NCBI RefSeq assembly: GCF_004341445.1
Contig: NZ_SLXV01000001.1
Span: 1 to 64,000 of the forward strand
Length of the DNA stretch: 64,000 nucleotides
Direction: 5' to 3'
DNA from: Baia soyae
GTDB taxonomy: Bacteria > Bacillota > Bacilli > Thermoactinomycetales > Thermoactinomycetaceae
How positions within the stretch are numbered: the stretch's first letter is position 1; each line of letters opens with the position of its first letter. The translations under genes were made by a program, and so were the position numbers. Below the pieces are notes generated by a model. That model was not told the origin of the DNA. It searched no databases and saw only the letters and a list, made by a program, of their open reading frames with translations. Shown piece by piece: positions 14,838 through 44,200 of the stretch.

Positions 14838-14861
14838 AGAGATGCCTCCTAAAAGGTAGAA

Positions 14862-14884: not shown

Positions 14885-14900
14885 TCGTGGATACGATCTC

Positions 14901-24889: not shown

Positions 24890-25674
24890 ATGATGATTAA
24901 TCATGATGTTGTAAGTGGAGTGAGCACATATTTTCAAAATCTCTCCGAAGATGTATTTCCTGACGATCTAAAAAATCGTGCTACGGTTGTTCTAAGTGGA
25001 TCTGCGGGGTGGGGGATTGCGGAGGGATTATTTGAATGAGAAAGCAGATTGGGATCTTCATATCTTGTTAGGAAATGAGGATTACCAATCGTTTATTAAC
25101 CAATATGAAGTAGATTATGTTATTGATGACCATGAGAATAAGCCAATTGTCTTCGGTCAAATCCATGATCATGATTGGCTTCTAGAAAGATTGGAAGGAA
25201 ATCATCCCGGAAGTTGGCCATTGTATCTATGGATCTATACGAATTGTGCTTTTATCCAAGACCCTCTAGGTATTTCTTCGTTGATTGCAGAGTATCAACT
25301 GAAATTTGAACAGGAGCTAGAACAGTTACGGAAAGATCATTTTGTTCTTTTTTCCGTTCGCCGCTTAGATACTAGCTCGTCTGCAAAACGAGGAATTGTC
25401 ACCGCAACAGGTATCAAAAGTAGCACTCCAGGCCTTTTCTCTCATTCATGCTAAACCCTATGCTTATAATAAGTGGTTAGCCAAACATGCTGAACATCTG
25501 TGTCCAGAAGGAGTCAAGTTAGTGGAGCTTTGTAATAGTTGCCTAATGGAGACGAGATTAGAGAGTTTGGTTGGTCTCGCAAAAGAATTACGTGACATGA
25601 TGGAAGTGGAAATGAAGAAGGTAACAGGGGACCAACGCTGGATTACTCACTGGTGGGAGTTCAATAGAAATTAA
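24890..25674 (+). pseudogene. Frameshifted nucleotidyltransferase (DUF4037-like)
   Basis: Three reading frames read as one protein broken twice. Frame 1 from ATG 24890 gives LSGSAGWGIAEG, the start of a polymerase-beta-like nucleotidyltransferase motif. Near 25020-25035 the sense continues in another frame as YLNEKADWDLHILL, carrying the DxD-type residues. Near 25390 a second shift leads to LSPQQVSKVALQAFSLIHAKPYAYNKWLAKHAE, a helical tail like DUF4037 proteins, ending at 25674. Two shifts in 800 bases suggest real decay, though sequencing error is possible. It follows the membrane-protein gene by 12 bases. Confidence 0.7.
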
Positions 25675-25916: not shown

Positions 25917-25970
25917 TTATACATCATCGTCGTCATCGCCCATCCATGATAATGGGAAGTTACGCTTCAC
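25917..25970 (-). CDS. Candidate 17-residue peptide overlapping the regulator 3' end
   Basis: A GTG-started frame encodes MKRNFPLSWMGDDDDDV and stops at 25917. It overlaps the last 11 bases of the TPR regulator. GAGGTGA lies six bases before the GTG, inside the regulator coding sequence, a spacing expected of a true ribosome site. A short reading frame directly after a TPR-type regulator is the usual place for a cognate signalling peptide (Phr, PapR, NprX and similar). It lacks a hydrophobic export signal, so any secretion route would resemble the very short leaderless-type peptides. Existence of the peptide is inferred. Confidence 0.4.
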   Translation of the reverse strand: MKRNFPLSWMGDDDDDV

Positions 25971-27318
25971 AAATGATCACCTCACTTCGGATATGGAGCT
26001 CTTTTTGAAGGCGATACATTTTATCCAGACAATCATGCTTCTGTTTCACATCGCCTAGTTTATCAAAACAATCCGTTAATTTCCACAAGGACGTATATGC
26101 CCTCTGCTTGTAACCATATTTTTCAGCTATTATTGCTGATTCCTGGTAGTAGACGAGGGCTTCAGAAAATTGATTTTGGAAGAAATGGACGTTACCTCTT
26201 ACGATGAGTGTCTTAGATAGCCGGTAAGGGTCTGGATTTTCCTTCTCGATCTGAATGGCTTTTTCTAGGTGATAAAGGGATTGCTCCCAATCTTTTGTAG
26301 AATTAAACAAGACACCTAAGTAGGTATGGATATCCACATGTCTTCGAGGCGATCGAAAGCTTGCATCTGAGCCAAGTGCCAACTGGAAGCGATCAAATGC
26401 TTTAGTTAACTCTTTTTGTTGTAGATAAATACTACCAGAAATGATAAGAAAATCAAGATAGTGACCGATCCTACCATCTGACCGATTCCGAGTGATTTGC
26501 ATTCCTTGTTTGCAACACTGATGGGCTTCTTCATACATTTTTGAGTCCCTCAATACCATGGCTCTGTGTTTATAAAGATTGATTAAAGCTGTGCCGTCAA
26601 ATCTACTATCTAGACTTTCTACTTCGGCCCAAACTTGGTCGAGTAATCGGGATGCTTGTTCCTGCTGAGAGGATTTTAGAAGATACATAACCTTATTTCC
26701 GGAGAGGATATACTTGATTTCTTTCTTTTCTTTTGTTTCATCATAGCTATCCAGTCCTAAATCTACATACACTAAGGCTTGGTTAAGATCGTTTGTTTCA
26801 TAGCTACATCGAGCTAACTCTTTGTAGCATATAGCAATAATATTATCTGAAGGATTGTGTTTGTACTTATTCATACATAATTCAAGGGCATGAAGATATT
26901 TTTTCTCTGCTCTCTTATAGTCATGTTCTTCATAGCAAATACGACCTTGAATAGAAAGGTAATAAGGTGTTAAAGGAAAGTACTCATCGAATTGAAATCG
27001 TTCTAATAGCTCGGTAGCAGTAGATGGGTCACCCCGATTTATAATGTGCTCGATTGCTTCTAGCTGATCATAATATTCCATCACTTCGGCCTTTGATTCT
27101 AGAGATTGTGCGACTACTTGGTCCTCGGTTATTTCCAATTTCTCCAGATAGATTTCAATGGTTCGGGAACTAATCTTTCCTTTACCACTTTCGATATTAC
27201 TAATGGTAGATCTCGAGATTAGGTGATCCTCTAGGTCTCCCATGCTTTTTCCTAATTCTTTGATTCTTCTTCGTCTCAACACATATCGGATGGTATCATC
27301 CTCTAGCTGAAAAATCAT
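25960..27318 (-). CDS. HTH-TPR transcription regulator (RRNPP-like)
   Basis: About 452 residues. An N-terminal Cro/C1-type helix-turn-helix (about residues 8-60: RRRRIKELGKSMGDLEDHLISRSTISNIESGKGKISSRTIEIYLEKL) is followed by many tetratricopeptide repeats filling the rest (for example YYLSIQGRICYEEHDYKRAEKKYLHALEL, DIHTYLGVLFNSTKDWEQSLYHLEKAIQIE). This layout is that of peptide-controlled regulators such as PlcR, NprR and AimR. The ATG at 27318 follows AAAGGTGGG; the track upstream is in a promoter region. It diverges from the operon starting at 27.56 kb, which it probably controls, and a tiny reading frame overlaps its end. Confidence 0.8.
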   Translation of the reverse strand: MIFQLEDDTIRYVLRRRRIKELGKSMGDLEDHLISRSTISNIESGKGKISSRTIEIYLEKLEITEDQVVAQSLESKAEVMEYYDQLEAIEHIINRGDPSTATELLERFQFDEYFPLTPYYLSIQGRICYEEHDYKRAEKKYLHALELCMNKYKHNPSDNIIAICYKELARCSYETNDLNQALVYVDLGLDSYDETKEKKEIKYILSGNKVMYLLKSSQQEQASRLLDQVWAEVESLDSRFDGTALINLYKHRAMVLRDSKMYEEAHQCCKQGMQITRNRSDGRIGHYLDFLIISGSIYLQQKELTKAFDRFQLALGSDASFRSPRRHVDIHTYLGVLFNSTKDWEQSLYHLEKAIQIEKENPDPYRLSKTLIVRGNVHFFQNQFSEALVYYQESAIIAEKYGYKQRAYTSLWKLTDCFDKLGDVKQKHDCLDKMYRLQKELHIRSEVIICEA

Positions 27319-27344
27319 GTGCACCCACCTTTCATTGCTCTTGT

Positions 27345-27525
27345 TACCAACATATATAAACATACAGAAAAAATCAAATCGTTTATTTGTTTTGGTAAAC
27401 AAAACGTGATTTTTACTAGAAAATGAGAGGCGGTAGGCTGGAAATGTTGGTATATGTATTCAGTTGTGCAAAGTGTAAGTTGCACAGTAGATCTATAGAA
27501 TTCTAACTTCGAATTCCTATATAAT
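27345..27525. promoter_or_regulatory. Divergent control region with palindromes
   Basis: Contains TACCAACAT (27345-27353) and its inverse ATGTTGGTA (27444-27452). It also contains the palindrome TGTGCAA-N8-TTGCACA (27465-27486), plus an A+T-rich imperfect dyad at about 27370-27412. A consensus TATAAT lies at 27520-27525 with no good -35 box. A palindrome centred about 50 bases upstream of a -35-less promoter suggests activation by the divergent regulator. Confidence 0.45.
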
Positions 27526-27558
27526 TCAATTAATAAAACTGAGAGCGAGGTGATTCCT

Positions 27559-27891
27559 TTGTTAAAACTTCGATTAGAAGGCCCGAATAATCAAATTCAA
27601 TCCTTTATGTATGAGTTGGAGCACAATTCAAGTATAGAACTACATGAGTCGGAGGAAAATTGCGAGATCAAGAATGGAGAGGTTGTCTCTTACTCCCAAT
27701 GTGCTATCAACCATACTCCCCGGAGTAGAGTTGAAATCATCGAGATGGAAACAGTTGATGGCTTGGTAATTCGTCTGCCACTTCTAGACGTGATCAGGGT
27801 GAAAATTACGGATGAGATGCAGATCGTAAGTGGTAAGAGCTATGATATCTTTGCAGACAACAAAAAAGGCCACTGCACATGGCCTAAGTGA
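27559..27891 (+). CDS. Small DUF3970/YvzF-like protein
   Basis: About 110 residues, no membrane segment and no signal. The beginning LKLRLEGPNNQIQSFMYELEHNSSIEL resembles DUF3970-type proteins of Bacillus (small alpha/beta folds of unknown role). The start is TTG 27559, six bases after GCGAGGTGA; a GTG nine bases upstream overlaps the ribosome site. It is the first gene rightward from the divergent regulator promoter, and the epimerase gene follows after 182 bases. Confidence 0.6.
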   Translation: MLKLRLEGPNNQIQSFMYELEHNSSIELHESEENCEIKNGEVVSYSQCAINHTPRSRVEIIEMETVDGLVIRLPLLDVIRVKITDEMQIVSGKSYDIFADNKKGHCTWPK

Positions 27892-28073
27892 AAATCTGTT
27901 GTTACTCTATTATACTACAATGAAGAAGCGAATGGTGAAAATCTAGGTCGGGTAGGGGTCTGAAATAACGGCCCCTCTTAGATTAGAATCGTTTGTAGAG
28001 AAATATCTTAAATTTCCGTGTTGTAATCCCAATCGTTTAGACTATTTTCTACTAGATAAGGTGGAATAGCCAA

Positions 28074-29024
28074 ATGAAAATTCTAGTCGTTGGTGGAGCT
28101 GGTTTTATAGGATCACATGTTGTAGATCTCTATATAGACAATGGACATGAAGTACACGTTGTCGATGATCTATCTACAGGAAAGAAAGGTAATATTCATC
28201 CAAGAGCAAAGTTTCATCATCTGGATATTTATAACGATCAAGAAGCGTTAACGCATCTGATTCAATCAGAAAAATTTGAAATCATAAACCATCATGCAGC
28301 TCAAAAGTCAGTTCCTGCTTCTATGGAAAATCCCATTATAGATGCACAAATTAATATCATGGGAACCTTAAATCTCCTAGAAAGCGCTGTTGAGCATGGT
28401 GTAAAGAAATTCATTTTTGCCTCTTCTGGAGGAACTCTTGCTGGTGATATAAGTAAAATTCCTACTAGTGAAGTAGATACTCCCGTATTGGTATCCCCTT
28501 ATGCGATTAGTAAGTATACATTGGAGAAATATCTAGATTTCTACTATCAGCATCACGGCTTGAACTATACTGTATTACGATACGCAAATGTGTATGGACC
28601 TCGCCAAGTTCCAGACGGTGAGTGTGGAGTGGTTTCTATCTTTTTAGAAAATTTTATGCAAGGTAAACCATCCAAAATTTATACGTTTCCACATATGCCT
28701 AGTGGTGCAACTCGCGATTACATTTTCGTAAAGGAAGTAGCACGTGTAAACTTATTGGTATTAGACGATGGAGATAACCAAGTCTTTAACATTGGAACAG
28801 GGGTAGAAACATCAACAGAGTCTGTCTATCAGATCCTACAGGATGGTTTAAAATGTTATGTTCCATGTATCAAGGAGCCAAAGAGAAAAGGTGATCTAGA
28901 AAGAGTCTCTCTGAATTGTGACCAAGCATTTAAACAACTAGGCTGGCGCTATCAAACCTCTTTACAACAAGGATTAATGGAAACGATTTATTCTGTGTTA
29001 GAGAGGAAGATAGAATGCAAATAA
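28074..29024 (+). CDS. NAD-dependent nucleotide-sugar epimerase/dehydratase
   Basis: A 316-residue extended short-chain dehydrogenase. The Rossmann motif is VVGGAGFIGSHVVD, the catalytic pair Tyr-x3-Lys is in PYAISKYTLEKY, and the substrate-binding segment is RYANVYGPRQVPDGECGVVSIF. It resembles UDP-glucose 4-epimerases and related NDP-sugar enzymes. The start ATG follows GGTGGAATAG. The 3' end overlaps the start of a decayed galU gene, which suggests the ancestral operon made UDP-glucose and then modified it. Followed by the Nudix-MurA fusion. Confidence 0.88.
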   Translation: MKILVVGGAGFIGSHVVDLYIDNGHEVHVVDDLSTGKKGNIHPRAKFHHLDIYNDQEALTHLIQSEKFEIINHHAAQKSVPASMENPIIDAQINIMGTLNLLESAVEHGVKKFIFASSGGTLAGDISKIPTSEVDTPVLVSPYAISKYTLEKYLDFYYQHHGLNYTVLRYANVYGPRQVPDGECGVVSIFLENFMQGKPSKIYTFPHMPSGATRDYIFVKEVARVNLLVLDDGDNQVFNIGTGVETSTESVYQILQDGLKCYVPCIKEPKRKGDLERVSLNCDQAFKQLGWRYQTSLQQGLMETIYSVLERKIECK

Positions 29025-29133
29025 AAAAGGCGATTATTCCGAACATGCTTTCTCTCGCGACTCAAGCTCAATCGAAAGAATGCTTCCAATCGTGGACAAG
29101 CTAGCCATTCAGTATATCGTAGATAATATGTGA
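29015..29133 (+). pseudogene. galU: Remnant of UTP-glucose-1-phosphate uridylyltransferase
   Basis: ATG 29015 opens MQIKKAIIP, the conserved start of GalU. After a shift and a lost AAGLGTRF segment, the later frames read LPIVDKLAIQYIVDNM, matching the LPIVDKPxIQYIVEE block of GalU, then a stop at 29131. Only about 40 of the family's roughly 290 codons remain. It overlaps the epimerase 3' end as a functional operon gene would. Confidence 0.7.
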
Positions 29134-29161
29134 CAGATTTATCTATAGAAATTGGGGTGAA

Positions 29162-30838
29162 ATGATGGAAACGAATCAACAGAGCGCTGGAATGATTGTA
29201 TTTTCTATAATAAACTCTACATTTCTCTTAGTTCAGCACAAAGAAGGGCACTGGGGTTTTCCGAAGGGAGGTATCGAGGATGGTGAAACAGAATTAGAGG
29301 CGGCATGGAGGGAGTTACAGGAAGAAACGCAAATAGCCTGTAATGGTATTTTAAATCCAAATAAATATCGATTCGTTGAGAAATACGAATTTCTATCAAC
29401 CAAAGGTGAGCGGATCAAGAAGGATACTATCTATTACGTGGCTTTTACATGCGATACTCAAATTACATTGAATCATAATGAATTAGTAGATGCAAAATGG
29501 ATGACATTAGATGAGATTGAATCACTCTCTGTGTTCTATTCACGAAATCTTCTGCCGCCACTATATGAAATTGTTCATTCAGAGATCGTTATCAAATTAG
29601 ATAGCTCTTTAAAGCAAGTAAAATTCCCCATCTCATCAACATCAATCCAAGGTTCTAAGCATGCTTTTTCAAGGATTGCTCCCTTATTTTTTTTGTTCGA
29701 CTCTTTAGAGGTTATAAATACTCCCGGTACTATCGATACCATTGCGATTCGACAGTTACTCACCTACTCAAAACAGCAAAAAGGATCACCAATCTCAATT
29801 CCGAGGTCGATTACGGATCTCTCACGTTCAATAATCAATTGCATTCCCGCTCTTCTTGCTTTGCATCCAATCATTACCTTCCATAATCCACAAGGCTGTC
29901 AAATTGGAAATCGGAAAATCGATCTCTACTTAGAGGTGATGAGAGAATTTGGTGCTAGATGGGTAACGCATCCAGATGGAATGGTGGAAGTGAATGCCTG
30001 TACTTTACATCCTACATCGATATATCTACCTTTTCCGTCTTTTACAGGGACGTCCACTGCCTTGATTCTTGCTAGTATAGCTAAAGGACAAACTAGAATC
30101 CAAAATGCCTCTATAGAGCCTGAGATTCTTGAGATGGTAGAAGTACTCCAAAACTTAGGTGTAGACATCACTTTTCAATCTGAGCGAAATTTGATTGTAC
30201 AAAACTCAGGAGTTACTACGCCTGTTAGGTGGAAACTATCAGAAGATCGTAATGTATTAATCACTCGAGCGTTGCTTGCGCTTATAACCGGGAATGAGTT
30301 TGTACACACATCCCAACGTTCTCTATACCTTGCTCCCTTTATAGATATCTTAGAACGTATGAACATCCCATTTTCTTATACACCTCATACTTTGCACATC
30401 CCACCGACATCGTTACAGAGATTACACCCAATTAATATTGTCTGCGGCCATTCACCTCGAGCGTGTTCTGACTGGCATCCCTTGATTGCCCCACTTCTCT
30501 GTAAAATTAATGGGGAATCATCTATAAAAGATCGAGTTTTTGAAGACCGCTATCGATACATCGAACAAATTCAACACGTCAATCCTAGATTCTCATACCG
30601 AACAGATAATGACCAATTGTGGATACAAGGGAATGAGAAGCAATCCAAAGTGGCTACAGATGCGCAGAGCTTGGATCTCCGAAGCGCCGCGGCTAATATT
30701 ATTGCCTTAGTGGGCGAGAATAGCCAGACCAGAGTTTGGGGTATTCAGCAACTTCTCCGTGGTTATGAAAATATTTTAGCTGATTTAGAAAGTGTGGGAA
30801 TTAATTATGTTACATTTGAACTTTCCGATTCAGAATGA
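29162..30838 (+). CDS. Nudix hydrolase fused to MurA-type enolpyruvyl transferase
   Basis: A 558-residue two-domain protein. Residues 1-135 are a Nudix domain; the box GGIEDGETELEAAWRELQEE (36-55) has the metal-binding REL.EE, with Gln in place of the usual late Gly. Residues 150-558 align with UDP-GlcNAc 1-carboxyvinyltransferase. The equivalents of E. coli MurA Lys22 (GSKHAF, 166), Cys115 and Arg120 (QGCQIGNRKID, 246 and 251), Asp305 (ACSDWHP) and Arg397 (DLRSAAAN) are all present, so catalysis looks intact. The MurA half is strongly diverged elsewhere, so the acceptor may not be UDP-GlcNAc; NikO/PolA enolpyruvyl transferases of nucleoside antibiotics are one precedent. Start ATG 29162, or 29165, after GGGGTGA. 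Confidence 0.85.
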   Translation: MMETNQQSAGMIVFSIINSTFLLVQHKEGHWGFPKGGIEDGETELEAAWRELQEETQIACNGILNPNKYRFVEKYEFLSTKGERIKKDTIYYVAFTCDTQITLNHNELVDAKWMTLDEIESLSVFYSRNLLPPLYEIVHSEIVIKLDSSLKQVKFPISSTSIQGSKHAFSRIAPLFFLFDSLEVINTPGTIDTIAIRQLLTYSKQQKGSPISIPRSITDLSRSIINCIPALLALHPIITFHNPQGCQIGNRKIDLYLEVMREFGARWVTHPDGMVEVNACTLHPTSIYLPFPSFTGTSTALILASIAKGQTRIQNASIEPEILEMVEVLQNLGVDITFQSERNLIVQNSGVTTPVRWKLSEDRNVLITRALLALITGNEFVHTSQRSLYLAPFIDILERMNIPFSYTPHTLHIPPTSLQRLHPINIVCGHSPRACSDWHPLIAPLLCKINGESSIKDRVFEDRYRYIEQIQHVNPRFSYRTDNDQLWIQGNEKQSKVATDAQSLDLRSAAANIIALVGENSQTRVWGIQQLLRGYENILADLESVGINYVTFELSDSE

Positions 30839-31568
30839 AAAAGAAATGTTAAAAGAGGAAGTTACTGGATTTTTACCCCCTCTATTACATGCGAGTGTGT
30901 TTATTGGCGGATCATATTTTTTTCCTACCCGGAGAGCTGTATGCTTTCGGAATGGAGCCAGTGATTTAGATATTTTAGTCATATGTAAACGAAATAAACA
31001 GAACCAAAAAATACTTGAGGAAATTTGTAATAAAGAGATCGTGGAACAATATATGAATGGTTACTATGATATTGTAAATGTCACACATCAATATGGTTCA
31101 GGGCGTAATGCCCTTCACGTCAAGTTTATGACAGTAGAGTTATATGAAAAGATCACCTTGATGCAAGAAATTCAATTTCGTAGTTATAGGCAGTCATCAC
31201 TGAGCATGAAAACATTAGTCTCCTTTACCCACAGCCGAAATGTTCCGCCTCTTGAGCTCTCATATCATGAAACTGAAAATCCATGGGGGCATACCCTTCA
31301 CTATGATTTTACACCTATACAAAACCATCGCTTGTTTCTATCAGATATTCATTCTATGGTGCTGTTTAGTGAATGTATTAAAGATCAAGTCGAAGTCCTT
31401 CCCATGAGAAAGAAGATGATTGATAACATACAAACATTCACAAAAGGTTGCGATAGTGAAAAAGATGTACTCCACATGTTCGGGTATTTTTATAATAAAA
31501 ATTTGATGAATCATGAGGTAGAGAAGGTTTTACTCAAATTATTTTGGAACAAGCAAAAAAGAGAGTAG
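30807..31568 (+). CDS. Nucleotidyltransferase-fold protein
   Basis: About 253 residues. The only clear motif is GGSYFFPTRRAVCFRNGASDLDILV, matching the GS ... DxD pattern of polymerase-beta-type nucleotidyltransferases (aminoglycoside nucleotidyltransferase-like). The rest is not recognised. The start is uncertain: ATG 30807 overlaps the fusion gene by 32 bases; ATG 30846 lies just downstream; neither has a strong ribosome site, so coupling to the upstream gene is likely. It ends in a terminator shared with the convergent TyrRS-like gene. Confidence 0.6.
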   Translation: MLHLNFPIQNEKEMLKEEVTGFLPPLLHASVFIGGSYFFPTRRAVCFRNGASDLDILVICKRNKQNQKILEEICNKEIVEQYMNGYYDIVNVTHQYGSGRNALHVKFMTVELYEKITLMQEIQFRSYRQSSLSMKTLVSFTHSRNVPPLELSYHETENPWGHTLHYDFTPIQNHRLFLSDIHSMVLFSECIKDQVEVLPMRKKMIDNIQTFTKGCDSEKDVLHMFGYFYNKNLMNHEVEKVLLKLFWNKQKRE

Positions 31569-31591
31569 CTTATTCACTACCCTCTTTTTGC
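31555..31591. terminator. Bidirectional terminator
   Basis: AAAAAAGAGAGTAG / CTACCCTCTTTTT stem with a short loop. It overlaps the nucleotidyltransferase stop and ends just before the convergent synthetase stop. Confidence 0.75.
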
Positions 31592-32836
31592 TCAAATAGT
31601 AATATGAAAATACTTATGCTTTCCAACGCGAACCATTCCAGATTCTATAACTGAATCGTCAATTGATAGAATTTGTTCTTTTTCACCGATGGCTCGTACA
31701 CCTTGTTGTTGAAACATTCTTCTTAATTCACTTTTGCTGGAAAAGCTCTTGCTATCAAACAAAACTTCAAAGTAGGTTGTTCCTTTGAAGGTAGGGAGTT
31801 GAATGCAATCATTTACGGTGACTTCACGTTTAGAATACTTGCGCTCAAAATGCTCTCGTTCTTTTAATCCACCGTCAAGATGTTTTGTTTCTAAAGCAAC
31901 GAGATAGGTTCCCAATTGCTTTTTTGCCTCGAGTGGGTGACTAGATATGAACGTCTGCAACTCTTCGATCTCTTTCTCATGGACATCAGCAAAGCTAAGG
32001 AAATACTCCATGATTAAGTGATCTGGAATGGACATAATCTTGCCGAATTTATCTTCTACTGTAGAGCGGACGGCGATGTAGTTTTCGAAGCTTTTACTCA
32101 TTTTACGTCCATCTCCAGCAGTTCCTTCTAAGATAGGAGTCGTCAGGATTACCTCTTCCTTCATGCCATAAATCTCCATTACTTTACGGCATTGTTGGAA
32201 GTTGAGAAGTTGATCGATACCACCTAGCTCGATATCGGATTTCAGATTAACAGAATCTAGTGCCATTAATACACCGTAGCAAACTTCGGCAAGAGAAACC
32301 CCTTGGTGATTTTCAAGTCGTTTGCGGAAATCGTTTCGTTGGGTAGCCTCAGCTAGATTCATTTGTTGAAAAATAGCAAAGATATCAGGCAACGTAGTAG
32401 AACTCAACCACGTTGAGTTGTAGTGAACCTGCATTTTATCAACATCAATATATGTACTTACTTGATCAGTGTAGGTTTTAGTATTCTCTGTGATGTCTTC
32501 AGTACTTAAAGGTTTACGGCTCGTTTCTCGACCGGATGGATCTCCAATCCGAGCAGTGAAGTCGCCGATAATGAAATCAATGTGATGGCCGGCTCTTGCA
32601 AATTGATTAAGCAAAAGAAGGGGGACAATATGCCCTAAATGAATTTCTGCACCTGTTGGGTCAATCCCTAACTTTACTCGCAATTTTCTACCCTCTGAAA
32701 GTAACTCTAGGAGTCGATCCTGAGTTAGAATCTCTTGGCATTTGGTACGAACAAAAGATACAAGCTCCTTAGGAGCAATCCCAACCCATGATTCTTGACT
32801 TCTTTTAAAGAAATGTTGATCGTATCGCTTTTCCAT
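31592..32836 (-). CDS. Divergent TyrZ-type tyrosyl-tRNA synthetase-like protein
   Basis: A 414-residue class I synthetase with HLGH (residues 66-69), KMSKS (245-249) and a C-terminal S4-like RNA-binding domain (about 350-414). The scaffold (LRVKLGIDPTG, IIGDFTARIGDPSGR, SDIELGGIDQ) is that of TyrZ-type TyrRS. In the tyrosine pocket helix, where most enzymes read YPLxQxxD, this one reads YGVLMALD: Tyr187 and Asp194 are kept but the pocket Gln is Met191, and the following GGTDQ is GGIDQ. Substrate specificity or drug sensitivity may be altered. The short 95-base leader has no T-box. Start ATG 32836 after GGAGG. It sits convergent to the Nudix-MurA operon. Confidence 0.85.
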   Translation of the reverse strand: MEKRYDQHFFKRSQESWVGIAPKELVSFVRTKCQEILTQDRLLELLSEGRKLRVKLGIDPTGAEIHLGHIVPLLLLNQFARAGHHIDFIIGDFTARIGDPSGRETSRKPLSTEDITENTKTYTDQVSTYIDVDKMQVHYNSTWLSSTTLPDIFAIFQQMNLAEATQRNDFRKRLENHQGVSLAEVCYGVLMALDSVNLKSDIELGGIDQLLNFQQCRKVMEIYGMKEEVILTTPILEGTAGDGRKMSKSFENYIAVRSTVEDKFGKIMSIPDHLIMEYFLSFADVHEKEIEELQTFISSHPLEAKKQLGTYLVALETKHLDGGLKEREHFERKYSKREVTVNDCIQLPTFKGTTYFEVLFDSKSFSSKSELRRMFQQQGVRAIGEKEQILSIDDSVIESGMVRVGKHKYFHITI

Positions 32837-32931
32837 CAAACATTCACCTCCAAGATGACTAGTTACATTTGTCCTGATAACAGTTTACTTGTTATGAAAG
32901 TGGAAAATCAACTTACCAAAGGAGGATTTTT

Positions 32932-33579
32932 TTGAATAGTATTCAAATTCTGATGGAGAAAGGGTTTATTCTAAAAGTAATCGGTGATTTGAGAGAACCT
33001 TTAAATCCGGCTCTTGTTGTCTGGGCTCGTCATCAACCAAAACAGCTTTTCCGTTGCCATGTGGCCCTATCTAGAGCTATAACGTCTAACCCTCTCCAAG
33101 TTTATGTAGACGACGTTTGTGCCGCTTTAGTAACAAGGAGAAGTATTTATGATCAAGCCCAAATAAATAAACACTATCAGGAATTTTTTTCATCATTAGG
33201 CTGTCATGTTGTTTTTAGTAGCGATCTATTTAATGAAAGATATGATAACCAGCTATTTTCTGCGCTAATGTTATTGGGGAGAACTGTGCCATTTAATGAG
33301 TTTAGTCATTGTTTGCCCGAAAAAAAGAGGAGACAGTTGCATGACCTTCATTTTGGGGAAGTTATGCATGCCTTATGTGAGTTGTTGTTATTTGAACATG
33401 TCAAGGAACAAGCAAATGTCCTATTGATTGGACAATTTAGTCAAGCAATTATCGCAATGCATAGGAATATTTCTAAGAAGCCATTATCAGGGATTGTCTT
33501 TCAAAAGTTTATTCAAGAGCAATGCATCGAGGATTATCTAGAGGGACTGGAAGAGGCTATGAAGACCCATACTCCTTAA
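32932..33579 (+). CDS. Unknown protein resembling a synthetase core without signature motifs
   Basis: A 215-residue soluble protein, divergent from the TyrRS-like gene, with AAGGAGG before a TTG start. No family is certain. The order of segments is like the TyrRS/TrpRS Rossmann core: VYVDDVCAALVTRR (cf. the IADLHALT strand), HYQEFFSSLGCHVVFSSDLF, then GEVMHALCELLLFEHVKEQANVLLIGQFSQAIIAMHR (cf. the YPLLQ..D ... GGTDQ..N block). Neither HIGH nor KMSKS is present, so it would not be a normal aminoacylating enzyme. The resemblance is by eye and should be tested. Confidence 0.4.
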   Translation: MNSIQILMEKGFILKVIGDLREPLNPALVVWARHQPKQLFRCHVALSRAITSNPLQVYVDDVCAALVTRRSIYDQAQINKHYQEFFSSLGCHVVFSSDLFNERYDNQLFSALMLLGRTVPFNEFSHCLPEKKRRQLHDLHFGEVMHALCELLLFEHVKEQANVLLIGQFSQAIIAMHRNISKKPLSGIVFQKFIQEQCIEDYLEGLEEAMKTHTP

Positions 33580-33703: not shown

Positions 33704-34159
33704 ATGACCGACCTAGAATATATGCTCATTGCAATAGAGGAGGGACGGAAAGCCCAAGGGAAGACGGGGACGAATCCGCCTGTAGGGGCTATCGTGGTGA
33801 AGGATGGCGAGATTGTCGGACGAGGACACACTTCCCATTTGGGCGGACCGCATGCGGAGGTAAATGCGTTAGCGGATGCAGGGGAGAAGGCGGTGGGCGC
33901 GACGGTGTATTGTACATTGGAACCTTGTGCTCACTATGGAAGGACAGGCCCTTGTTGTGTGGCTTTGACGGATGCAGGGGTGACACGTGTGGTAATTGGG
34001 ATTGGTGATCCATATGAGCAGGTAAATGGAAAAGGGATGGATCATCTACGGGATCACGGAGTTGAGGTGAGTCTCGGTTACTGTGAAGACTTGATTCGGG
34101 AGGATTTAAAGGACTTCCTGGATCGAGTAAAGAGAGAGAAGAGTAACGGTGGAAAGTGA
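33704..34159 (+). CDS. Stand-alone RibD-type cytidine/deoxycytidylate deaminase-fold protein
   Basis: A 151-residue zinc deaminase. The catalytic motifs are GGPHAEVNAL (His-Ala-Glu) and LEPCAHYGRTGPCC (PCxxxGRTxPC), the latter diagnostic for the deaminase half of riboflavin enzyme RibD. The reductase half is absent, so on its own it could deaminate a diaminopyrimidine or another heterocycle. The gene is visibly richer in G+C than its A+T-rich flanks, a hint of separate origin. ATG 33704 has a GGAAAGG site. It does not obviously belong to the lanthipeptide operon, from which a terminator separates it. Confidence 0.85.
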   Translation: MTDLEYMLIAIEEGRKAQGKTGTNPPVGAIVVKDGEIVGRGHTSHLGGPHAEVNALADAGEKAVGATVYCTLEPCAHYGRTGPCCVALTDAGVTRVVIGIGDPYEQVNGKGMDHLRDHGVEVSLGYCEDLIREDLKDFLDRVKREKSNGGK

Positions 34160-34300: not shown

Positions 34301-34324
34301 GTACTTGAAAGGGAGGTGAAATCA

Positions 34325-34558
34325 ATGTCTAACAATAAATTTGACTTAGATTTACAATTAAGTTCAATTGATACAGGTAATAAAGGTCCACTGGTTACGC
34401 AACAAAGAACTTGTGGGTCCGACTGTGGAGCGTCAGGACGATGTGCTAGAACAAACGATTGTTCTTCGGATTGCCCGCCGCCAACACCACATACACAAGG
34501 TTTTGGGTGCACCATGTTCTTCTGTGGAGGAGCTGGGAAGACCGCTAAAGTTTGCTAA
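34325..34558 (+). CDS. lanA: Class I lanthipeptide precursor
   Basis: A 77-residue peptide. The leader has the FDLDLQ box at residues 6-11, the FNLD-type element recognised by LanB and LanC. The leader probably ends near TQQR (residue 28), a basic site like that cut by NisP-type proteases (inference). The remaining 49 residues hold 8 Cys and 10 Ser/Thr, mostly arranged with the hydroxyl residue 2-4 positions before a Cys: SDC, SGRC, TNDC, SSDC, TMFFC, TAKVC, ready for (methyl)lanthionine rings. A Pro-rich hinge PPPTPH separates a tight N-terminal set from the C-terminal rings. The ATG follows GGGAGGTGA. LanB, LanT and LanC follow. Confidence 0.92.
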   Translation: MSNNKFDLDLQLSSIDTGNKGPLVTQQRTCGSDCGASGRCARTNDCSSDCPPPTPHTQGFGCTMFFCGGAGKTAKVC

Positions 34559-34575
34559 TAGATGAATAATGTTTG

Positions 34576-34612
34576 GCAATGGAATCGGATTATCCGGTTC
34601 CATTGCTATATT
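34576..34612 (+). terminator. Attenuator-like hairpin between precursor and LanB genes
   Basis: GCAATGGAATCGG (34576-34588) pairs with CCGGTTCCATTGC (34594-34606). It is followed by TATATTATA rather than a strong T-run. Such weak terminators between a lanthipeptide precursor and its enzymes let the precursor be made in excess. Confidence 0.65.
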
Positions 34613-34771
34613 ATAGGATGGAAATAATTAGGTTATATAAAATCGTGTTTTGATTCAAATTTCCGTTGGTAAAAAAATCCTGTTCTATATCACTTTTATT
34701 TTGATAATGTATAATAATTATAGATTGTTTAATTATTATTTTATATATAAGAGATTTTCTTGGAGGTTCGT

Positions 34772-37700
34772 ATGTCTTTGCAAACAGTAGAAAAAGTAGA
34801 AAATAAATCGAAAGAGTCATCTCGTTTATATAAACCACTTGATTTTTATATGTTACGAATTCCTGCTCTTCCTTTCGAATTATATTTACATTCATTAGAG
34901 AGTTCGTCAACAGAGTGGGAGAGCATGCGGGGAGAGGTTTTATCGAAATTAGTTGCATTATCGCAAAATAAAATCATAAGAGAAGTGGTAGCTGTTGCTA
35001 GCCCCTCCCTCCTTCATTCCCTCACGAATCTGACGAATGACGCTCAGCCCCGCAAGCAAGATCAGGCGATAAAAGGGTTTTTACGCTATTTTTTACGGAT
35101 GACAACGAGATCGACTCCATATGGTTTGTGCTCGGGTGTTACAACGGGTTCTTTTGGAGAAGAGTCCCGGATTGAGATTGATGCTTTATCCACTTATCAG
35201 AAACATTCCCGGCCGGATATGGAGTGGTTACTAAAGGTAATACAATCGTTTGAAATGAACATTGAGATCGTAAAACAACTTCAAGTGCAAGTAAATGATG
35301 CTACCTATGTAAATAGAGCTAGGGCGAAGTTGCCTTATCAAACGCTTTATGGACAAGAAGATAGAAAGATGGAGATGGCCTCCATTCGATATACAGAAGT
35401 TGTAGAGCGTGTTTTCCAACTGGCAAAACAACCAATCCGATTTCAAATGTTGACGGATCAATTGGTGAAGGATTATCCAGAAGCGAGTGAGGAGCAAATC
35501 ACTCCATTTTTATGGCAACTTTTTCAGCAGGAGTTCCTCATTAGTGAGTTGCGCCCGCCTTTTATGGTGGAGTCACCGTTCGCTTATGTGTTAGAAAAAT
35601 TATCTGCCGTTCAGGGGATGGAAGTGCAAAAAAAGCAGCTTCAGGAGTTATCGATCGAGCTACGCGAATATGATCAGCTTCCAATTGGAGAGGGAGAAGA
35701 GAAGTATTTACGTCTAACCACCCAGATGAAAGAAATAGCAGAAGTGAAAACACCCTTACAAGTAGATTTAGCTGTACGTAAAAAAGAGGTGACTCTTTCT
35801 AGCTCTATCCAAGAGGAAGTGGCGAGGGTGGCTGAAACTTTATGGCGCCTATCTCCCGATCAATCTACTAATCCTCATCTAGAATCGTATCGTAGCGATT
35901 TTCAGGAGAGGTATGGCTACTATCAAGAAGTTCCATTGCTTGAATTACTGGATGAAGATCAAGGTTTGGGTGCACCCCCTACTTACCAATATCCGCCTAG
36001 CCACCGGCCGTATATTCCCCAGCCATTTTCGTTTTCGATGAAGAGAGAATCTTTGTTGCATCAATGGATGCTCGAATCTTGGGCCACAGGGGATATTGAG
36101 ATTGAATTGACGGAAGCAAAAATAAAACAATTAGAGCCGGAAAACCAAAGAGAAGAACAAGCGCCGCCATCGATGGAGCTATATTTTACGGTGGCTACTG
36201 CCTCTATAGAAGCGATGGATCAAGGTGACTTCCAATTAGTGATTTCACCTAATTCAGGGTCGGATGGAGCTGGGAAATCATTTGGCCGTTTTCTAGATCT
36301 ATTTGATTCGGAATTAGAAGAGAAGTGGAAGGATATCCATCGCTTGGAGCAAGAGAAGGAGCCAGATGCTGTTTTCGCTGAGTTAGTCTATCTATCTACT
36401 TCGGGGAGATCGGGTAATGTTTCGCTGTCAAAGAATATGCGCCCTTATGAGATTGCATTGGGGACCAATTCTTCGAAAGAGTCTTCTCAAACGATCGCTC
36501 TATCTGACTTAGTTGTCGGTTGTACTCATGATGGATTTTATGTGAAATCCAAGTCTTTAGAAAAACAAGTCATTCCATGTACGGGGCATATGCTGAATCA
36601 CGCAGGCTCTCCTAATGTGTATCGATTTTTAAAAGAGATATCCGTAGAGGGTACGAGAAGGTGGATGTCCTTTAAGTGGGGCTCATTGGAACGAGCTGCT
36701 TTCCTGCCTCGTTTGCGAATAGGAAAAGCGATCATAAGCCCCGCTAGATGGCTATTAAATGATACAATGCTCGATTCGAAGTTAGAATCAAAGGCTTGGT
36801 TTCATGCGCTACAGGCATGGCGGGAAAAGTGGAGAGTGCCTCGCTTTATCTACTTAACGGTGGAAGATAACCGGATCTTGTTAGATTTAACTAATCCTCT
36901 TCATGCAGAAGAGTTACGTCGTGATTTCAGTAAGCTACCTGCTGGTGGACAGCTTGTTATGACGGAGATGGGATATGATCCCTCAGACGTATGGGTGGAA
37001 GGGGAAGATGGTCACTTTGTGATGGAGTGTGTGTTCCCTTTAATCAAAAACGAAAAAGCGATTAAAGAAGAGCGAGGGACTCGGAGAGAGCAAGTAGCGG
37101 GTCGGATTACTCAACTGAAGGATAAGCCTTTGATCGATCTTCATGAACGGTCGAGCTTACCCGGTAGCAACTGGCTTTTTTTGAAATTATATGGATTGGG
37201 TAGTCGGCAAGAGGAATTTATTGGCGGTTATCTGAAGAATTTTGTGCAACAAGTTCAGGAATCAGGATGGTCGGATTACTCTTACTTTATGAGGTACGGT
37301 GATCCTGAAACCCATATTCGTTTGCGCTTGCATGGAGACCCGAAAGAGCTTGTTTCTAGAGGGATTCCTGAAGTATATGAATGGGCTGAGTCTCTTCGAG
37401 GAGAGGGGCTTTTAACACGTCTGGTAATCGATACATATGACCCAGAGGTTGAACGATACGGTGGCCTTGAATGGATGAATGAAGCGGAGCAAGTTTTTGC
37501 GGCGGATAGTATCGTCGTTTCGGAATGGATTGGTTGGAAGCGTTGGGGTCAAATGCAGATGAGTGAGGAGATGCTGGGAGTTATTAGTGTCGTTGATTTC
37601 CTAGAGAGTTTCGGCCTCTCATTTGAAGAGCAACTTACATGGTTAGATCGTCGTGTAAACCCAAAGCTGTATTTACAAGATTTCCGTAAAGATCGGAAAG

Positions 37701-37996
37701 AATATCTCCGTTTGGCGAATAGCATGAACGATTGGGATGGCTTGAGGCAGGATAAAGAGGGTCAGCGGATTCTACCATTGCTAAATTTGCGCAGAGAGTA
37801 CGTGCAACGATATGCGGCCAGTCTGAAGCAAGCGGAGAAGCAAGGGAGTTTATACAATCAATTCCATAAAATTATTGCGAGTGTGATTCATTTGCATTTA
37901 AATCGCTTTATTGGATTGGACGGAGCAAAAGAAGATAAGGTGATGATACTAGCTAGGCATACGCTACGAAATTTGCGTCACTTCAGGGGGGAGTAA
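34772..37996 (+). CDS. lanB: Full-length class I lanthipeptide dehydratase LanB
   Basis: A 1074-residue fused LanB. The N-terminal glutamylation domain (about 1-800) has GFLRYFLRMTTRSTPYGLCSGV near residue 100, the usual LanB landmark. The C-terminal elimination domain (about 815-1074; SpaB_C type) starts GSNWLFLKLYGLGSRQEEF and has RYGDPETHIRLRLHG and DTYDPEVERYGG. It uses glutamyl-tRNA to activate Ser/Thr of the precursor and eliminates glutamate to give dehydroalanine/dehydrobutyrine. The ATG at 34772 follows TGGAGG; a TTG 12 bases upstream lies inside the ribosome site. The transporter gene starts one base after the stop. Confidence 0.95.
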   Translation: MSLQTVEKVENKSKESSRLYKPLDFYMLRIPALPFELYLHSLESSSTEWESMRGEVLSKLVALSQNKIIREVVAVASPSLLHSLTNLTNDAQPRKQDQAIKGFLRYFLRMTTRSTPYGLCSGVTTGSFGEESRIEIDALSTYQKHSRPDMEWLLKVIQSFEMNIEIVKQLQVQVNDATYVNRARAKLPYQTLYGQEDRKMEMASIRYTEVVERVFQLAKQPIRFQMLTDQLVKDYPEASEEQITPFLWQLFQQEFLISELRPPFMVESPFAYVLEKLSAVQGMEVQKKQLQELSIELREYDQLPIGEGEEKYLRLTTQMKEIAEVKTPLQVDLAVRKKEVTLSSSIQEEVARVAETLWRLSPDQSTNPHLESYRSDFQERYGYYQEVPLLELLDEDQGLGAPPTYQYPPSHRPYIPQPFSFSMKRESLLHQWMLESWATGDIEIELTEAKIKQLEPENQREEQAPPSMELYFTVATASIEAMDQGDFQLVISPNSGSDGAGKSFGRFLDLFDSELEEKWKDIHRLEQEKEPDAVFAELVYLSTSGRSGNVSLSKNMRPYEIALGTNSSKESSQTIALSDLVVGCTHDGFYVKSKSLEKQVIPCTGHMLNHAGSPNVYRFLKEISVEGTRRWMSFKWGSLERAAFLPRLRIGKAIISPARWLLNDTMLDSKLESKAWFHALQAWREKWRVPRFIYLTVEDNRILLDLTNPLHAEELRRDFSKLPAGGQLVMTEMGYDPSDVWVEGEDGHFVMECVFPLIKNEKAIKEERGTRREQVAGRITQLKDKPLIDLHERSSLPGSNWLFLKLYGLGSRQEEFIGGYLKNFVQQVQESGWSDYSYFMRYGDPETHIRLRLHGDPKELVSRGIPEVYEWAESLRGEGLLTRLVIDTYDPEVERYGGLEWMNEAEQVFAADSIVVSEWIGWKRWGQMQMSEEMLGVISVVDFLESFGLSFEEQLTWLDRRVNPKLYLQDFRKDRKEYLRLANSMNDWDGLRQDKEGQRILPLLNLRREYVQRYAASLKQAEKQGSLYNQFHKIIASVIHLHLNRFIGLDGAKEDKVMILARHTLRNLRHFRGE

Positions 37997-37997
37997 G

Positions 37998-39851
37998 GTG
38001 AAAAAAGAAGATGCAGAGCTAGAAGATATTTCTCTCTCCAATATCCTTCGCTCCATTCAATACTGGCCTAGGGTTTTTAGGATTCTGTGGGAAACCCATA
38101 AAGCGTACCTTCTCATCATCGCGGTTATAAATATATTGCAAGGATTAACCCCTGTTGTGGCTTTATTAACGACAACCCAGCTGATTAATAGTGTCGCGAA
38201 GTCACATCAACAAGGGACGTTTGAAGCGATTGGTTGGGCGTTTGCCATCTATGTCGTTTTAGGATTGTTTTCCCAGTGTTTAGCGTTGGTTGAAAATTAT
38301 TTAAATCCGCTATTTGAAAGGCTATTAACCAATCGCATTAATATCTTGATTATGGAAAAGTCCATTCAGCTATCCTTATCTGCGTTTGAAGACTCCGATA
38401 TACAGGATCAACTCCAACGAGCTAGACAAGAGACAAGTTATCGACCTTATCAAATCTTTAGTAGCATCTTTACTTTAGGGACGAGCTTTATTACGCTCTT
38501 TTCAACCGTAGCGCTGATTGTTGCTTGGAATGCGTGGGTTGCAGTTCTATTAATATTGATTCCGGTGTCTTCGTTTGTTTCTTTCTTGCGCTTGGGCAAG
38601 GAGGAGTTCATCTTGAACTATAAGCGAGCACCGAGGCAAAGAGAGGCTTGGTACTTGGGTTTCTTGTTAACGAAGGATAGCACATTTAAAGAAGTAAAGT
38701 TGTTTCAGTTAGGAACCTATTTGAAAGCTAGATATGAAGAGCTATTTCAAGGATTTTATAAAGAGGATAAAAGACTCATTCGGAAACGATCGCTTACTTC
38801 TGTTTCCTTTGAAATTTTTTACCAAATGGTGATTGGGGCTATTATTTTACTTATTTTATGGACGGCGTATGTTGGACAATTACTAGTCGGAAATGTAGTA
38901 GGAATGATTCAGGCGACTAACTTGACTCATGGTACTTCACAAGGAATTGTTCAAGGGATTTTGTCTTTATGCCAACATAATTTATATATGAAAAACTTAT
39001 TTGCTTACCTCGATCTGGAGCAGAAAAGTGTTGCTTCACTCCCACCATCGTCAGCGGAGTTTGATGTTTCTGGGATTGAATCGATTGAATTTCGGAATGT
39101 CACATTCCAGTATCCGGGTAGGGGTGTACCTGCTTTGCGAGATATTAGCTTTACGCTGAGACGTGGTGAAACCATTGCCATTGTCGGGAAAAATGGTTCG
39201 GGGAAAACGACTTTATTAAAATGTATCACGCAACTCTATGATGATTTTCAAGGGGATATCTTGATTAATGGCATCTCAATCCGAACGATAAACATAGAAG
39301 AATTACGTAAGAAGATCGGCGTTGTGTTCCAAGACTTTGTTCATTATGAAATGGATGTGCGCCATAATATCGGGTTTGGCGATATTGATTCGATCAATCA
39401 AGATGATGAGTTGTTACAGGCGGCAAGTCAAGCGGGGATCCAAGAGATGGTAGAAGAGTTGCCACAAAAACTAGAAACGAGACTCGGATTATGGTTTGAG
39501 GAGGGTCATCAGTTATCTGGAGGACAGTGGCAACGGATTGCGATTGCCAGAGCTTTTATGAGGAAAGCAGACCTATATATATTGGACGAGCCTAGTTCTT
39601 ATCTGGATCCAGAAGCAGAGAAGGATGTATTTGATAAATTTTACAATCTAGTAAAAGGAAAGCTAGGCATATTTATTACGCATCGTTATTCGTCTGTGAG
39701 CTTTGCAGACAAAATCATTGTGATGGATCAAGGGCGAATAGTGGAACAAGGGAGTCATCGGGAACTAATGAAAGAAGATGGGATTTACGCGGGTTTATAT
39801 CATTTGCAAGCTTCTTCCTTTGTAATGAATGAAGATGAAAACGATGCATGA
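37998..39851 (+). CDS. lanT: Lanthipeptide ABC exporter LanT (without C39 peptidase)
   Basis: A 617-residue ABC half-transporter. The N-terminal membrane domain has about six helices (residues 35-320), followed by an ATPase with Walker A GKNGSGKTT, signature LSGGQWQRIAIARAF, Walker B LYILDEPSSYLD and switch His ITHRYSS. There is no N-terminal C39 peptidase, as is normal for class I exporters (NisT, SpaT), so leader removal needs a separate protease. The GTG start follows GGGGGGAG immediately after lanB. It should export the modified precursor. Confidence 0.92.
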   Translation: MKKEDAELEDISLSNILRSIQYWPRVFRILWETHKAYLLIIAVINILQGLTPVVALLTTTQLINSVAKSHQQGTFEAIGWAFAIYVVLGLFSQCLALVENYLNPLFERLLTNRINILIMEKSIQLSLSAFEDSDIQDQLQRARQETSYRPYQIFSSIFTLGTSFITLFSTVALIVAWNAWVAVLLILIPVSSFVSFLRLGKEEFILNYKRAPRQREAWYLGFLLTKDSTFKEVKLFQLGTYLKARYEELFQGFYKEDKRLIRKRSLTSVSFEIFYQMVIGAIILLILWTAYVGQLLVGNVVGMIQATNLTHGTSQGIVQGILSLCQHNLYMKNLFAYLDLEQKSVASLPPSSAEFDVSGIESIEFRNVTFQYPGRGVPALRDISFTLRRGETIAIVGKNGSGKTTLLKCITQLYDDFQGDILINGISIRTINIEELRKKIGVVFQDFVHYEMDVRHNIGFGDIDSINQDDELLQAASQAGIQEMVEELPQKLETRLGLWFEEGHQLSGGQWQRIAIARAFMRKADLYILDEPSSYLDPEAEKDVFDKFYNLVKGKLGIFITHRYSSVSFADKIIVMDQGRIVEQGSHRELMKEDGIYAGLYHLQASSFVMNEDENDA

Positions 39852-39870
39852 TGGGAAGCGGAGATGAATC

Positions 39871-41217
39871 ATGACGAAGACGATCTATATAGAGCAAAAT
39901 GAGAAATTAGAAGAGATTCTGATAGAACTAGCTGATCTCCTAAAAGATCCCGAAAAAGTGATTCAAACCGTAAATGCGAAGGGAAATGAAATTGATTTAG
40001 GGAGTGGAAAGCATTTTTCGTGGGAAGATGGGAGTTTAGCGGACGGATATCCGAGTATCTGTCTACTTATGGGTGAGATGGATCGTTTTTTCCCTAGTGA
40101 TACCTGGGATGAGCATGGATATCAGCATCTTCGGGCCTTACAAGAGTCGGTTCAAAAGACTGGTTTTCATTCTCTCTCGCTTTGGGGCGGGGTTATCAGT
40201 ATGGCCATGGCGGCTCGATCCCTGTCTCAAGGTGGGCAAAGATATCAGCATCTATTGGAGCAATTGCATCAATATTATCTGCAGTGCTATCCAGCGATGC
40301 TCGAACAATCCATTCACAATCTACAAGACAACGTTCGTATGCAGGAATTTGATGTGATTCAAGGCTGGACTGGAATTGGCAGATACTTATTATTACAAAA
40401 AGAACATGCAGGGTTGCGAAAATCATTAGAAGAAATCCTACATTACTTAGTTCTTTTGAGTCAGTATAAAGAGGTTAACGGGCAGATAGTCCCTGGATGG
40501 CATGTGCCACAGAAGAATCAATTCTTAGAAAAAGAAAAGCAAGAATACCCAAACGGTAACTTTAATAGTGGCTTGGCCCACGGCATTCCCGGACCACTAG
40601 CTCTATTAGCGCTCGCATCTCTACATGGAGTGGAAGTACCTGGACAGAAGGAAGCGATCCGTCGTATTACGGACTGGTTATTACAATGGAAGCTGATGGA
40701 TGATTATGGACCCTTTTGGACGTACCGAATTAGCTTAGAGGGTCACCAAGCAGGGATGGTAGATAAAGTACAACACCGTGAAGCGTGGTGCTACGGTTCT
40801 CCAGGCGTGGCTCGATCTATCTACTTAGCAGGAAGGGCTTTAGAGAATGAAGACTACAAACAGGTTGCAATCGAGTCTTACCTAGCTACGTTTAAACGTC
40901 CACAGGAAATATGGGGAATCGATTCACCCACTTTTTGTCATGGTTTACTAGGATTACTACAATTAACGCATCGCATGTATGTTGATACTGGAGTAGAGGA
41001 TTTGAAAGAACATCGAGATCGTCTAATCGATCAGATGATCAGCATGTACGACAAAGACGCTCCTCTTCGTTTTTACGATATCATTCCGATGAATGAAGGT
41101 AAGATGAACCATACCAATGCTGGACTCTTAGGCGGTGTAGCAGGGATTGCGCTTGTATTCATTAGTTTGATTCATGATTATGACCCTGATTGGGATAGTG
41201 TGTTTCTCATTTGTTGA
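39871..41217 (+). CDS. lanC: Lanthionine cyclase LanC
   Basis: A 448-residue alpha/alpha-barrel zinc enzyme. Zinc ligands are Cys307 (AWCYGSPG), Cys356 and His357 (PTFCHGLLG). His237 lies in NSGLAHGIPGPLALLAL, the conserved histidine of LanC enzymes. It adds Cys thiols to the dehydrated residues to form thioether rings. It starts 19 bases after lanT and is the last gene of the operon. A terminator follows. Confidence 0.95.
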   Translation: MTKTIYIEQNEKLEEILIELADLLKDPEKVIQTVNAKGNEIDLGSGKHFSWEDGSLADGYPSICLLMGEMDRFFPSDTWDEHGYQHLRALQESVQKTGFHSLSLWGGVISMAMAARSLSQGGQRYQHLLEQLHQYYLQCYPAMLEQSIHNLQDNVRMQEFDVIQGWTGIGRYLLLQKEHAGLRKSLEEILHYLVLLSQYKEVNGQIVPGWHVPQKNQFLEKEKQEYPNGNFNSGLAHGIPGPLALLALASLHGVEVPGQKEAIRRITDWLLQWKLMDDYGPFWTYRISLEGHQAGMVDKVQHREAWCYGSPGVARSIYLAGRALENEDYKQVAIESYLATFKRPQEIWGIDSPTFCHGLLGLLQLTHRMYVDTGVEDLKEHRDRLIDQMISMYDKDAPLRFYDIIPMNEGKMNHTNAGLLGGVAGIALVFISLIHDYDPDWDSVFLIC

Positions 41218-43791: not shown

Positions 43792-43963
43792 AGAATCATT
43801 CCGCCTTTCATATACATATTATCCAATTTTTAGTATGCATAAGAAACCTCATTTCATACGTTCATCGTATGTGCCGGATATTGGGACAAAAATGTATCGA
43901 AATGTATAGGGAGATGTGGCACAATATACGTGACAGATACATATTGTTCGGGCGAATGAAGGT

Positions 43964-44200
43964 GAGAGGAGAGACTGTTGATCGATTTGATCGACGGCGC
44001 CGAAGGAGCAAACTTCTGATAAAGAAGTGAATCTCTCAGGCAAAAGGAGGCTTGCTGGACGCCACTCTGGAGAGTGCTTGTGATGCTTTGGTCATGATCA
44101 CGAGCCACCCAAGGGGCAACTTGAATGGTGCATTCAGGTGAACTCTCAGGTTCCATGACAGAGACTGTGCGACAAAGAACAGGGCTCTGTCTATTTTATT
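43964..44200 (+). ncRNA. Tandem glycine riboswitch with terminator
   Basis: Two adjacent aptamers with the family sequences. Aptamer I has GCGCCGAAGGAGCAA, AATCTCTCAGGCAAAAGGA and GGACGCCACTCTGGAGAG (to about 44075). Aptamer II has CCACCCAAGGGGCAA and GAACTCTCAGG, closing at 44163. GACAGAG (44157-44163), at the 3' end of aptamer II, can instead pair with CTCTGTC (44185-44191), followed by a T-rich stretch, forming the terminator. Glycine binding should prevent termination and turn on gcvT-gcvPA-gcvPB. Confidence 0.93.

Follow-up and report, generated by a model that had tools for sequence, protein, structure and literature searches.

What is a second, strongly diverged tyrosyl-tRNA synthetase (TyrRS) doing between a MurA-like enzyme and a protein that resembles a stripped synthetase core? 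This question is raised by a small gene cassette of Baia soyae (Thermoactinomycetaceae; assembly GCF_004341445.1), present in a stretch of 64,000 nt (contig NZ_SLXV01000001.1, positions 1-64,000), which is referred to as the window. The initial annotation, made from the letters of this DNA, had proposed an undescribed biosynthetic locus for a nucleotide- or amino-acid-derived small molecule. In outline, the analysis bears out a real and undescribed small-molecule locus: a catalytically complete MurA domain with a Lys-His pair as in NikO fits a putative nucleotide-derived product, and the spare TyrRS fits self-resistance. The best explanation, held here with moderate confidence, is that the cassette makes a nucleotide-derived, probably tyrosine-bearing inhibitor of TyrRS and that its own TyrRS (TyrRS2) provides immunity.

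Conservation and rarity of the cassette

All seven genes that had been predicted between 25960 and 33579 were present and intact upon inspection of the open reading frames (ORFs). Besides the regulator gene, they are named p2, p3 (the epimerase), p4, p5, TyrRS2, and p7; the genome of the window is G000. Domains of the cassette proteins were assigned with Pfam and NCBIfam profiles. A genome from a second genus of the family (G008, locus L006) carries six of the seven genes with order and orientation preserved, namely those coding for the regulator, p2, the Nudix-MurA fusion, the nucleotidyltransferase, a convergent TyrRS, and the TyrRS-core-like protein; this locus lacks the epimerase gene and contains an extra tandem copy of p2. 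Identities to the L006 proteins were 74% for TyrRS2, 55% for p4, 44% for p5, 41% for the regulator, 38% for p7, and 37% and 25% for p2 against the two tandem copies. The genes for p4 and p5 overlap by 47 nt in the window and by 44 nt in L006, and the divergent TyrRS2 and p7 genes are 92 bp and 82 bp apart, respectively. For p5 (dN 0.53, dS 2.8) and p7 (dN 0.57, dS 3.4), nonsynonymous divergence between the window and L006 (dN) was far below synonymous divergence (dS), the high dS making this a rough estimate. As the TyrRS2 gene lies on the opposite strand, the cassette is not a single operon. The initial annotation had looked to a conserved order in several genera; one further genus, and thus two full copies, was found. 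Homologues scattered without a shared neighbourhood, or genes each belonging to unrelated single-gene families, were not what emerged.

The cassette is very rare. The Nudix-MurA gene occurred in 2 of 23 genomes of the family and in 2 of 399 genomes of the class, p5 in the same two of 399 class genomes, and p7, among a phylum sample of 398 genomes, in that of the window only. Outside the family, no homologues were retrieved in phylum scans (398 genomes with Nudix-MurA as query and 398 with p7), class scans (399 genomes with p5, 399 with Nudix-MurA, and 300 with TyrRS2), or an order scan of 42 genomes with TyrRS2. The plasmid records searched held no cassette copy, the viral contigs gave no cassette match, and the phage records contained nothing beyond ordinary TyrRS; one scan of a genome-contig collection with poorly conserved patterns returned Nudix-domain matches only. 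The 'NikO' locus of Agrobacterium K84 was considered as a relative and rejected, as it is located on pAtK84c together with asnB and further genes, none of them annotated as an aminoacyl-tRNA synthetase (aaRS). MurA-like genes on three other plasmids have unrelated neighbours.

TyrRS2, p7, and the Nudix-MurA fusion

The initial annotation described an altered TyrRS-like protein, and this description holds. TyrRS2 scored 266 bits against TIGR00234 (cut-off 113.8) with intact HLGH, GDPSG, and KMSKS motifs, which the three cassette-type copies keep as H(L/I)GH, GDP(S/T)G, and KMSKS. The amino acid pocket is changed in all three copies: compared with all family housekeeping TyrRSs examined, YPLMQGYD is replaced by YGVLMALD or YGVLMGLD and GGTDQ by GGIDQ. 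In particular, the Gln of the canonical YxxxQxxD, present in every housekeeping TyrRS compared, is Met in each of the three. This residue is Gln173 (B. stearothermophilus numbering), which binds the amino group; Asp176, which recognizes the phenol, is kept. TyrRS2 formed a deep, separate clade with support 100/100 (long branches; bootstrap not settled) and shared 33-36% identity with all TyrRSs compared but one, a Staphylococcus plasmid type at 24%. It was equally distant from the housekeeping TyrRSs of its family and from those of other phyla, whereas the housekeeping TyrRS of the host is 43-56% identical to the TyrRSs of Pantoea, Collinsella, Legionella, and Niallia. Judged by these comparisons, TyrRS2 is a deep, fast-diverged lineage. 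The housekeeping gene is located elsewhere in the genome (contig C37) and carries a T-box leader; such leaders preceded all three housekeeping TyrRS genes tested and none of the three cassette TyrRS genes.

A second diverged copy beside biosynthetic-type genes, with a housekeeping copy elsewhere, is the pattern of self-resistance. In the agrocin 84 system, AgnB2 is a self-resistant LeuRS, a second, non-essential, diverged enzyme whose gene adjoins those for the biosynthesis of an aaRS inhibitor (PMC5059758). TyrRS2 resembles it in being a second diverged aaRS next to biosynthetic-type genes and differs in being a TyrRS instead of a LeuRS. The biosynthetic genes of agrocin 84 are different from those of the cassette.

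The congener G001 provides a loss pattern. It has no Nudix-MurA gene, and of p7 only a 5' piece of about 58 bp remains, next to a complete TyrRS2 with 95% protein identity to the window copy. Between both genomes, dN/dS of TyrRS2 was 0.057 (dS 0.49), and that of the housekeeping TyrRS was 0.057 as well (dS 0.39). These like ratios and similar dS values suggest that TyrRS2 was inherited and is under strong purifying selection; most likely, it stems from the ancestor of the genus and selection continued after the other genes were lost. That the synthetase alone is retained fits a resistance gene and not a mere supplier of Tyr-tRNA. The lone TyrRS2 of G001 has a prokaryotic Argonaute gene beside it, after the p7 stub (L037 2885-5152; PADLOC pAgo 1.8e-167, PprPIWI). 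In the genome of the window, a decayed and rearranged second TyrRS2/p7 pair was found near the same contig's end (L018 11375-12190; contig C1 about 171360-172190), its fragments being 89-93% identical to the window copy.

The synthetase-core-like character assigned to p7 was borne out by its predicted fold, not by sequence, as neither a Pfam match nor a match among PDB sequences was obtained. NCBIfam gave weak, below-cut-off matches only (thymidylate synthase, E 0.0025), and the protein is devoid of HIGH, KMSKS, and a tRNA-binding domain. An AlphaFold2 (AF2) model built from a two-sequence alignment had a mean confidence (pLDDT) of 81.5, and all 50 matches listed by Foldseek against the PDB were TyrRSs or engineered TyrRSs (best E 3.3e-6; template modelling score to the query about 0.6-0.68; identity 10-16%). 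Hence, p7 models as a TyrRS catalytic core without the ATP motifs.

Reduced cores of this kind have precedents. Cyclodipeptide synthases (CDPSs) are built on a minimal core of class Ic that resembles TyrRS and TrpRS and has no ATP motifs (PMC7566563). A class Ic Rossmann core lacking HIGH and KMSKS is likewise predicted for p7, but this protein gave no CDPS profile match in Pfam or NCBIfam and has no conserved Ser after the first strand, where WAR(H/R) is conserved instead. The ascamycin cluster encodes the AlaRS AcmD and the truncated AlaRS-like AcmF, a transferase which lacks ATP-binding residues, near genes of a nucleoside pathway (PMC12945691). The combination of a fuller aaRS with a truncated aaRS-like protein without ATP motifs, beside nucleotide-type genes, recurs in the cassette; however, the AlaRS is of class II and the TyrRS of class Ic, sulfamate genes are absent from the cassette, and a transferase activity of p7 is a prediction. 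The SB-203208 cluster, which was spotted by its extra synthetase gene, encodes the IleRS-like SbzA, a class I aaRS-like protein capable of such a transfer (PMC6331615). It shares with the cassette an aaRS-like protein, there in the cluster of an aaRS inhibitor, but SbzA is full-length with HIGH- and KMSKS-like motifs, both of which p7 lacks.

The fusion predicted for p4 was confirmed, with a Nudix domain at about residues 1-140 (NUDIX, 5e-18) and an enolpyruvyl transferase domain at about 148-558 (EPSP_synthase, 2e-21). Its score against the MurA equivalog TIGR01072 was 170.1 bits, below the cut-off of 392.7. Alignment with the genome's own MurAs showed that the residues corresponding to C115, R120, D305, R331, R371, and R397, the catalytic positions of MurA, are retained. 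The same alignment revealed alterations at positions following R120 and within the PSVGATQN loop, both sites of nucleotide contact in MurA. In addition, the Asn beside the catalytic Lys is replaced by His (KN to KH), a pair found in two NikO sequences and in none of three MurA-type proteins compared. NikO and PolA produce 3'-enolpyruvyl-UMP (PMC5365060). As MurA-fold transferases of phosphoenolpyruvate (PEP) with Lys-His at the Lys-Asn site they resemble p4, which differs in its fusion to Nudix and in an overall score nearer MurA; an ORF for a radical-SAM partner of the NikO/PolA type was seen neither in 25960-33579 nor in the L006 cassette. The Nudix part matched Ap4A hydrolases among solved structures. 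For p5, the nucleotidyltransferase assignment is carried by a GS...D-x-D motif that is kept between the window and L006, its profile match (MdcG) being sub-threshold; the AF2 model (pLDDT 47.6) was too poor for use.

Other genes and surroundings

Table 1. Features of the cassette region in the window.
Feature	Coordinates	Strand	Evidence
HTH_3 + TPR regulator, 452 aa, RRNPP-like architecture	25960..27318	-	Pfam HTH_3, TPR_12/2/1; L006 orthologue
p2, small protein of no assigned function, divergent from regulator	27550..27891	+	L006 copies; no Pfam match
p3, NDP-sugar epimerase (extended SDR), probable passenger	28074..29024	+	GalE/Epimerase profile matches
Frame-broken remnant resembling GalU N-terminus	29015..29132	+	three-frame translation
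p4, Nudix-MurA fusion	29162..30838	+	NUDIX and EPSP_synthase matches; L006 orthologue
p5, nucleotidyltransferase-like	30792..31568	+	GS...D-x-D motif; weak MdcG match
Terminator-like hairpin between convergent p5 and TyrRS2 genes	31556..31589	.	14-pair stem + T tail
Cassette TyrRS (TyrRS2), 415 aa	31592..32839	-	TIGR00234; L006 and G001 orthologues
p7, truncated TyrRS-core-like, divergent from TyrRS2	32932..33579	+	L006 orthologue; AF2 + Foldseek
HTH, helix-turn-helix; TPR, tetratricopeptide repeat; NDP, nucleoside diphosphate; SDR, short-chain dehydrogenase/reductase.

The regulator was rightly recognized as a TPR-type protein, Pfam finding both TPR and HTH_3 domains, but its start had been set at 27402; alignment with the orthologue in L006 (6452-7792, same place and orientation) puts it at 27318 (Table 1). 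The tiny overlapping reading frame to which the initial annotation drew attention encodes 42 amino acids and was considered as a signalling peptide. This frame is due to chance, because 62% of synonymous shuffles yield one as long, and it is not conserved in G008. Neither did the DUF3970-like label of p2 survive: p2 had no Pfam match and did not reach the DUF3970 gathering score, and a p2 paralogue of G008 remained sub-threshold (E 0.074; 13.7 bits versus a gathering cut-off of 21.1). Profile matches confirmed p3 as an NDP-sugar epimerase. Its membership of the set was rejected, given that it is unconserved and missing from the L006 cassette; with a paralogue (43%) elsewhere in the genome, it is probably a passenger outside the conserved set. 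The broken frame that follows it resembles GalU and looks like a passenger too; its DNA has no second copy in the genome.

Just before the cassette, a gene-like stretch is broken over three overlapping frames (24890-25674), the two longer pieces having no Pfam match. On the other side, 33704-34159 encodes a stand-alone RibD-type deaminase domain of 151 amino acids (52% GC in a region of 38-41% GC), which is not followed by a reductase half. Further on, a class I lanthipeptide cluster (34316-41217) comprises a Cys-rich precursor, LanB (N and C domains), an ABC transporter, and LanC; the precursor scored 27.5 of 40 bits against the elgicin/penisin family model, below the cut-off. Elsewhere in the window, a siderophore locus (6413-14885) contains a confirmed IucA/IucC-family synthetase gene (6413-8248) and, by eye, genes resembling those of a further synthetase and of a lysine/ornithine monooxygenase, along with genes for a pyridoxal phosphate-dependent decarboxylase and an aminotransferase. 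An ordinary glycine riboswitch (43956-44061) is located upstream of glycine-cleavage genes.

Proposed function and its alternatives

In the proposed scheme, the HTH-TPR regulator would control the divergent genes. The MurA domain of p4 may transfer enolpyruvyl from PEP to an acceptor distinct from UDP-GlcNAc, either a nucleotide or a nucleotide-sugar, and the Nudix domain and p5 may trim or activate the nucleotide part. Going by predicted fold and precedent, p7 would attach an aminoacyl group to this scaffold (most likely the tyrosyl of Tyr-tRNA), which would give a Tyr-AMP-like product. The gene pattern suggests that TyrRS2 would confer self-resistance by charging tRNA-Tyr while the T-box-controlled housekeeping TyrRS is inhibited. 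Natural products that target TyrRS are few, SB-219383 being an example named in a review (PMC7916415), and nothing on a TyrRS self-resistance cluster was found in the literature searches. The most specific form of the proposal is tentative: p7 might be the first TyrRS-derived, non-CDPS, aminoacyl-tRNA-dependent transferase, building a nucleotide-linked TyrRS inhibitor from a nucleotide enolpyruvylated by Nudix-MurA, with TyrRS2 as dedicated immunity.

Several observations speak against an inhibitor with its own immunity gene. The pocket changes of TyrRS2 could shift amino acid specificity instead of drug sensitivity, and the MurA domain of p4 scores nearer MurA than NikO (129.8 versus 96.9 bits). 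The six-gene set contains neither an exporter nor dedicated amino-acid or nucleoside-tailoring enzymes. A profile comparison of p7 with TyrRS gave no signal, the relationship being one of predicted fold only. Moreover, as two complete copies of the cassette were found, the profiles of p5 and p7 are based on two sequences each.

Other explanations account for part of these data. TyrRS2 might serve p7 as a supplier of charged tRNA, either tRNA-Tyr or a different tRNA loaded with a Tyr analogue, the product having a target other than TyrRS. The close divergent pairing of both genes, the joint occurrence of their remnants at the second site, the remodelled pocket, and the precedent of AcmD, a cluster aaRS that charges tRNA used in ascamycin biosynthesis (PMC12945691), agree with this. 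If supply were its whole role, the continued selection on TyrRS2 of G001 after the loss of p7 and p4 would have no explanation, and this alternative is considered unlikely. Its intact class I catalytic motifs would also suit a mere spare TyrRS, comparable with tyrZ in Bacillus, that adjoins a sugar-nucleotide set by history. Many Bacillota carry a second TyrRS gene. Such a history is improbable, as the position of TyrRS2 inside the set was kept in two genera though other genes diverged to 38-55%, and as the protein is no closer to the housekeeping TyrRSs of the family than to those of other phyla.

Patchy distribution, a type II restriction-like gene near the G008 cassette, and the Argonaute gene in G001 bring to mind a nucleotide-based defence or stress cassette, in which p5, Nudix, and MurA-like parts would modify, upon infection, a target that is either a nucleotide or linked to tRNA, and TyrRS2 would bypass the resulting damage to Tyr charging. 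No convincing defence-specific PADLOC match was obtained (HTH and Nudix, PDC-S07, only), the viral and phage searches yielded nothing but ordinary TyrRS in phage records, and a catalytically complete PEP-using enzyme would be unusual in such a system; this explanation seems about as improbable as a spare TyrRS. Finally, a LanB gene beginning about 1.2 kb past p7 could make the cassette part of the adjacent lanthipeptide cluster, with its tRNA-dependent LanB, and the epimerase and GalU-like remnant could point to a surface-sugar pathway. In G008, the cassette has neither lanthipeptide genes nor an epimerase gene alongside, and in the window the RibD-like gene (GC 52% versus 38%) and a strong terminator intervene, which makes this connection highly improbable.

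If TyrRS2 is indeed a self-resistance enzyme, target, resistance gene, and biosynthetic genes would be united in one small package in these members of the Thermoactinomycetaceae. If p7, devoid of ATP motifs, transfers Tyr from tRNA, it would represent a TyrRS-like branch of aaRS-like natural-product enzymes, beside the CDPSs.

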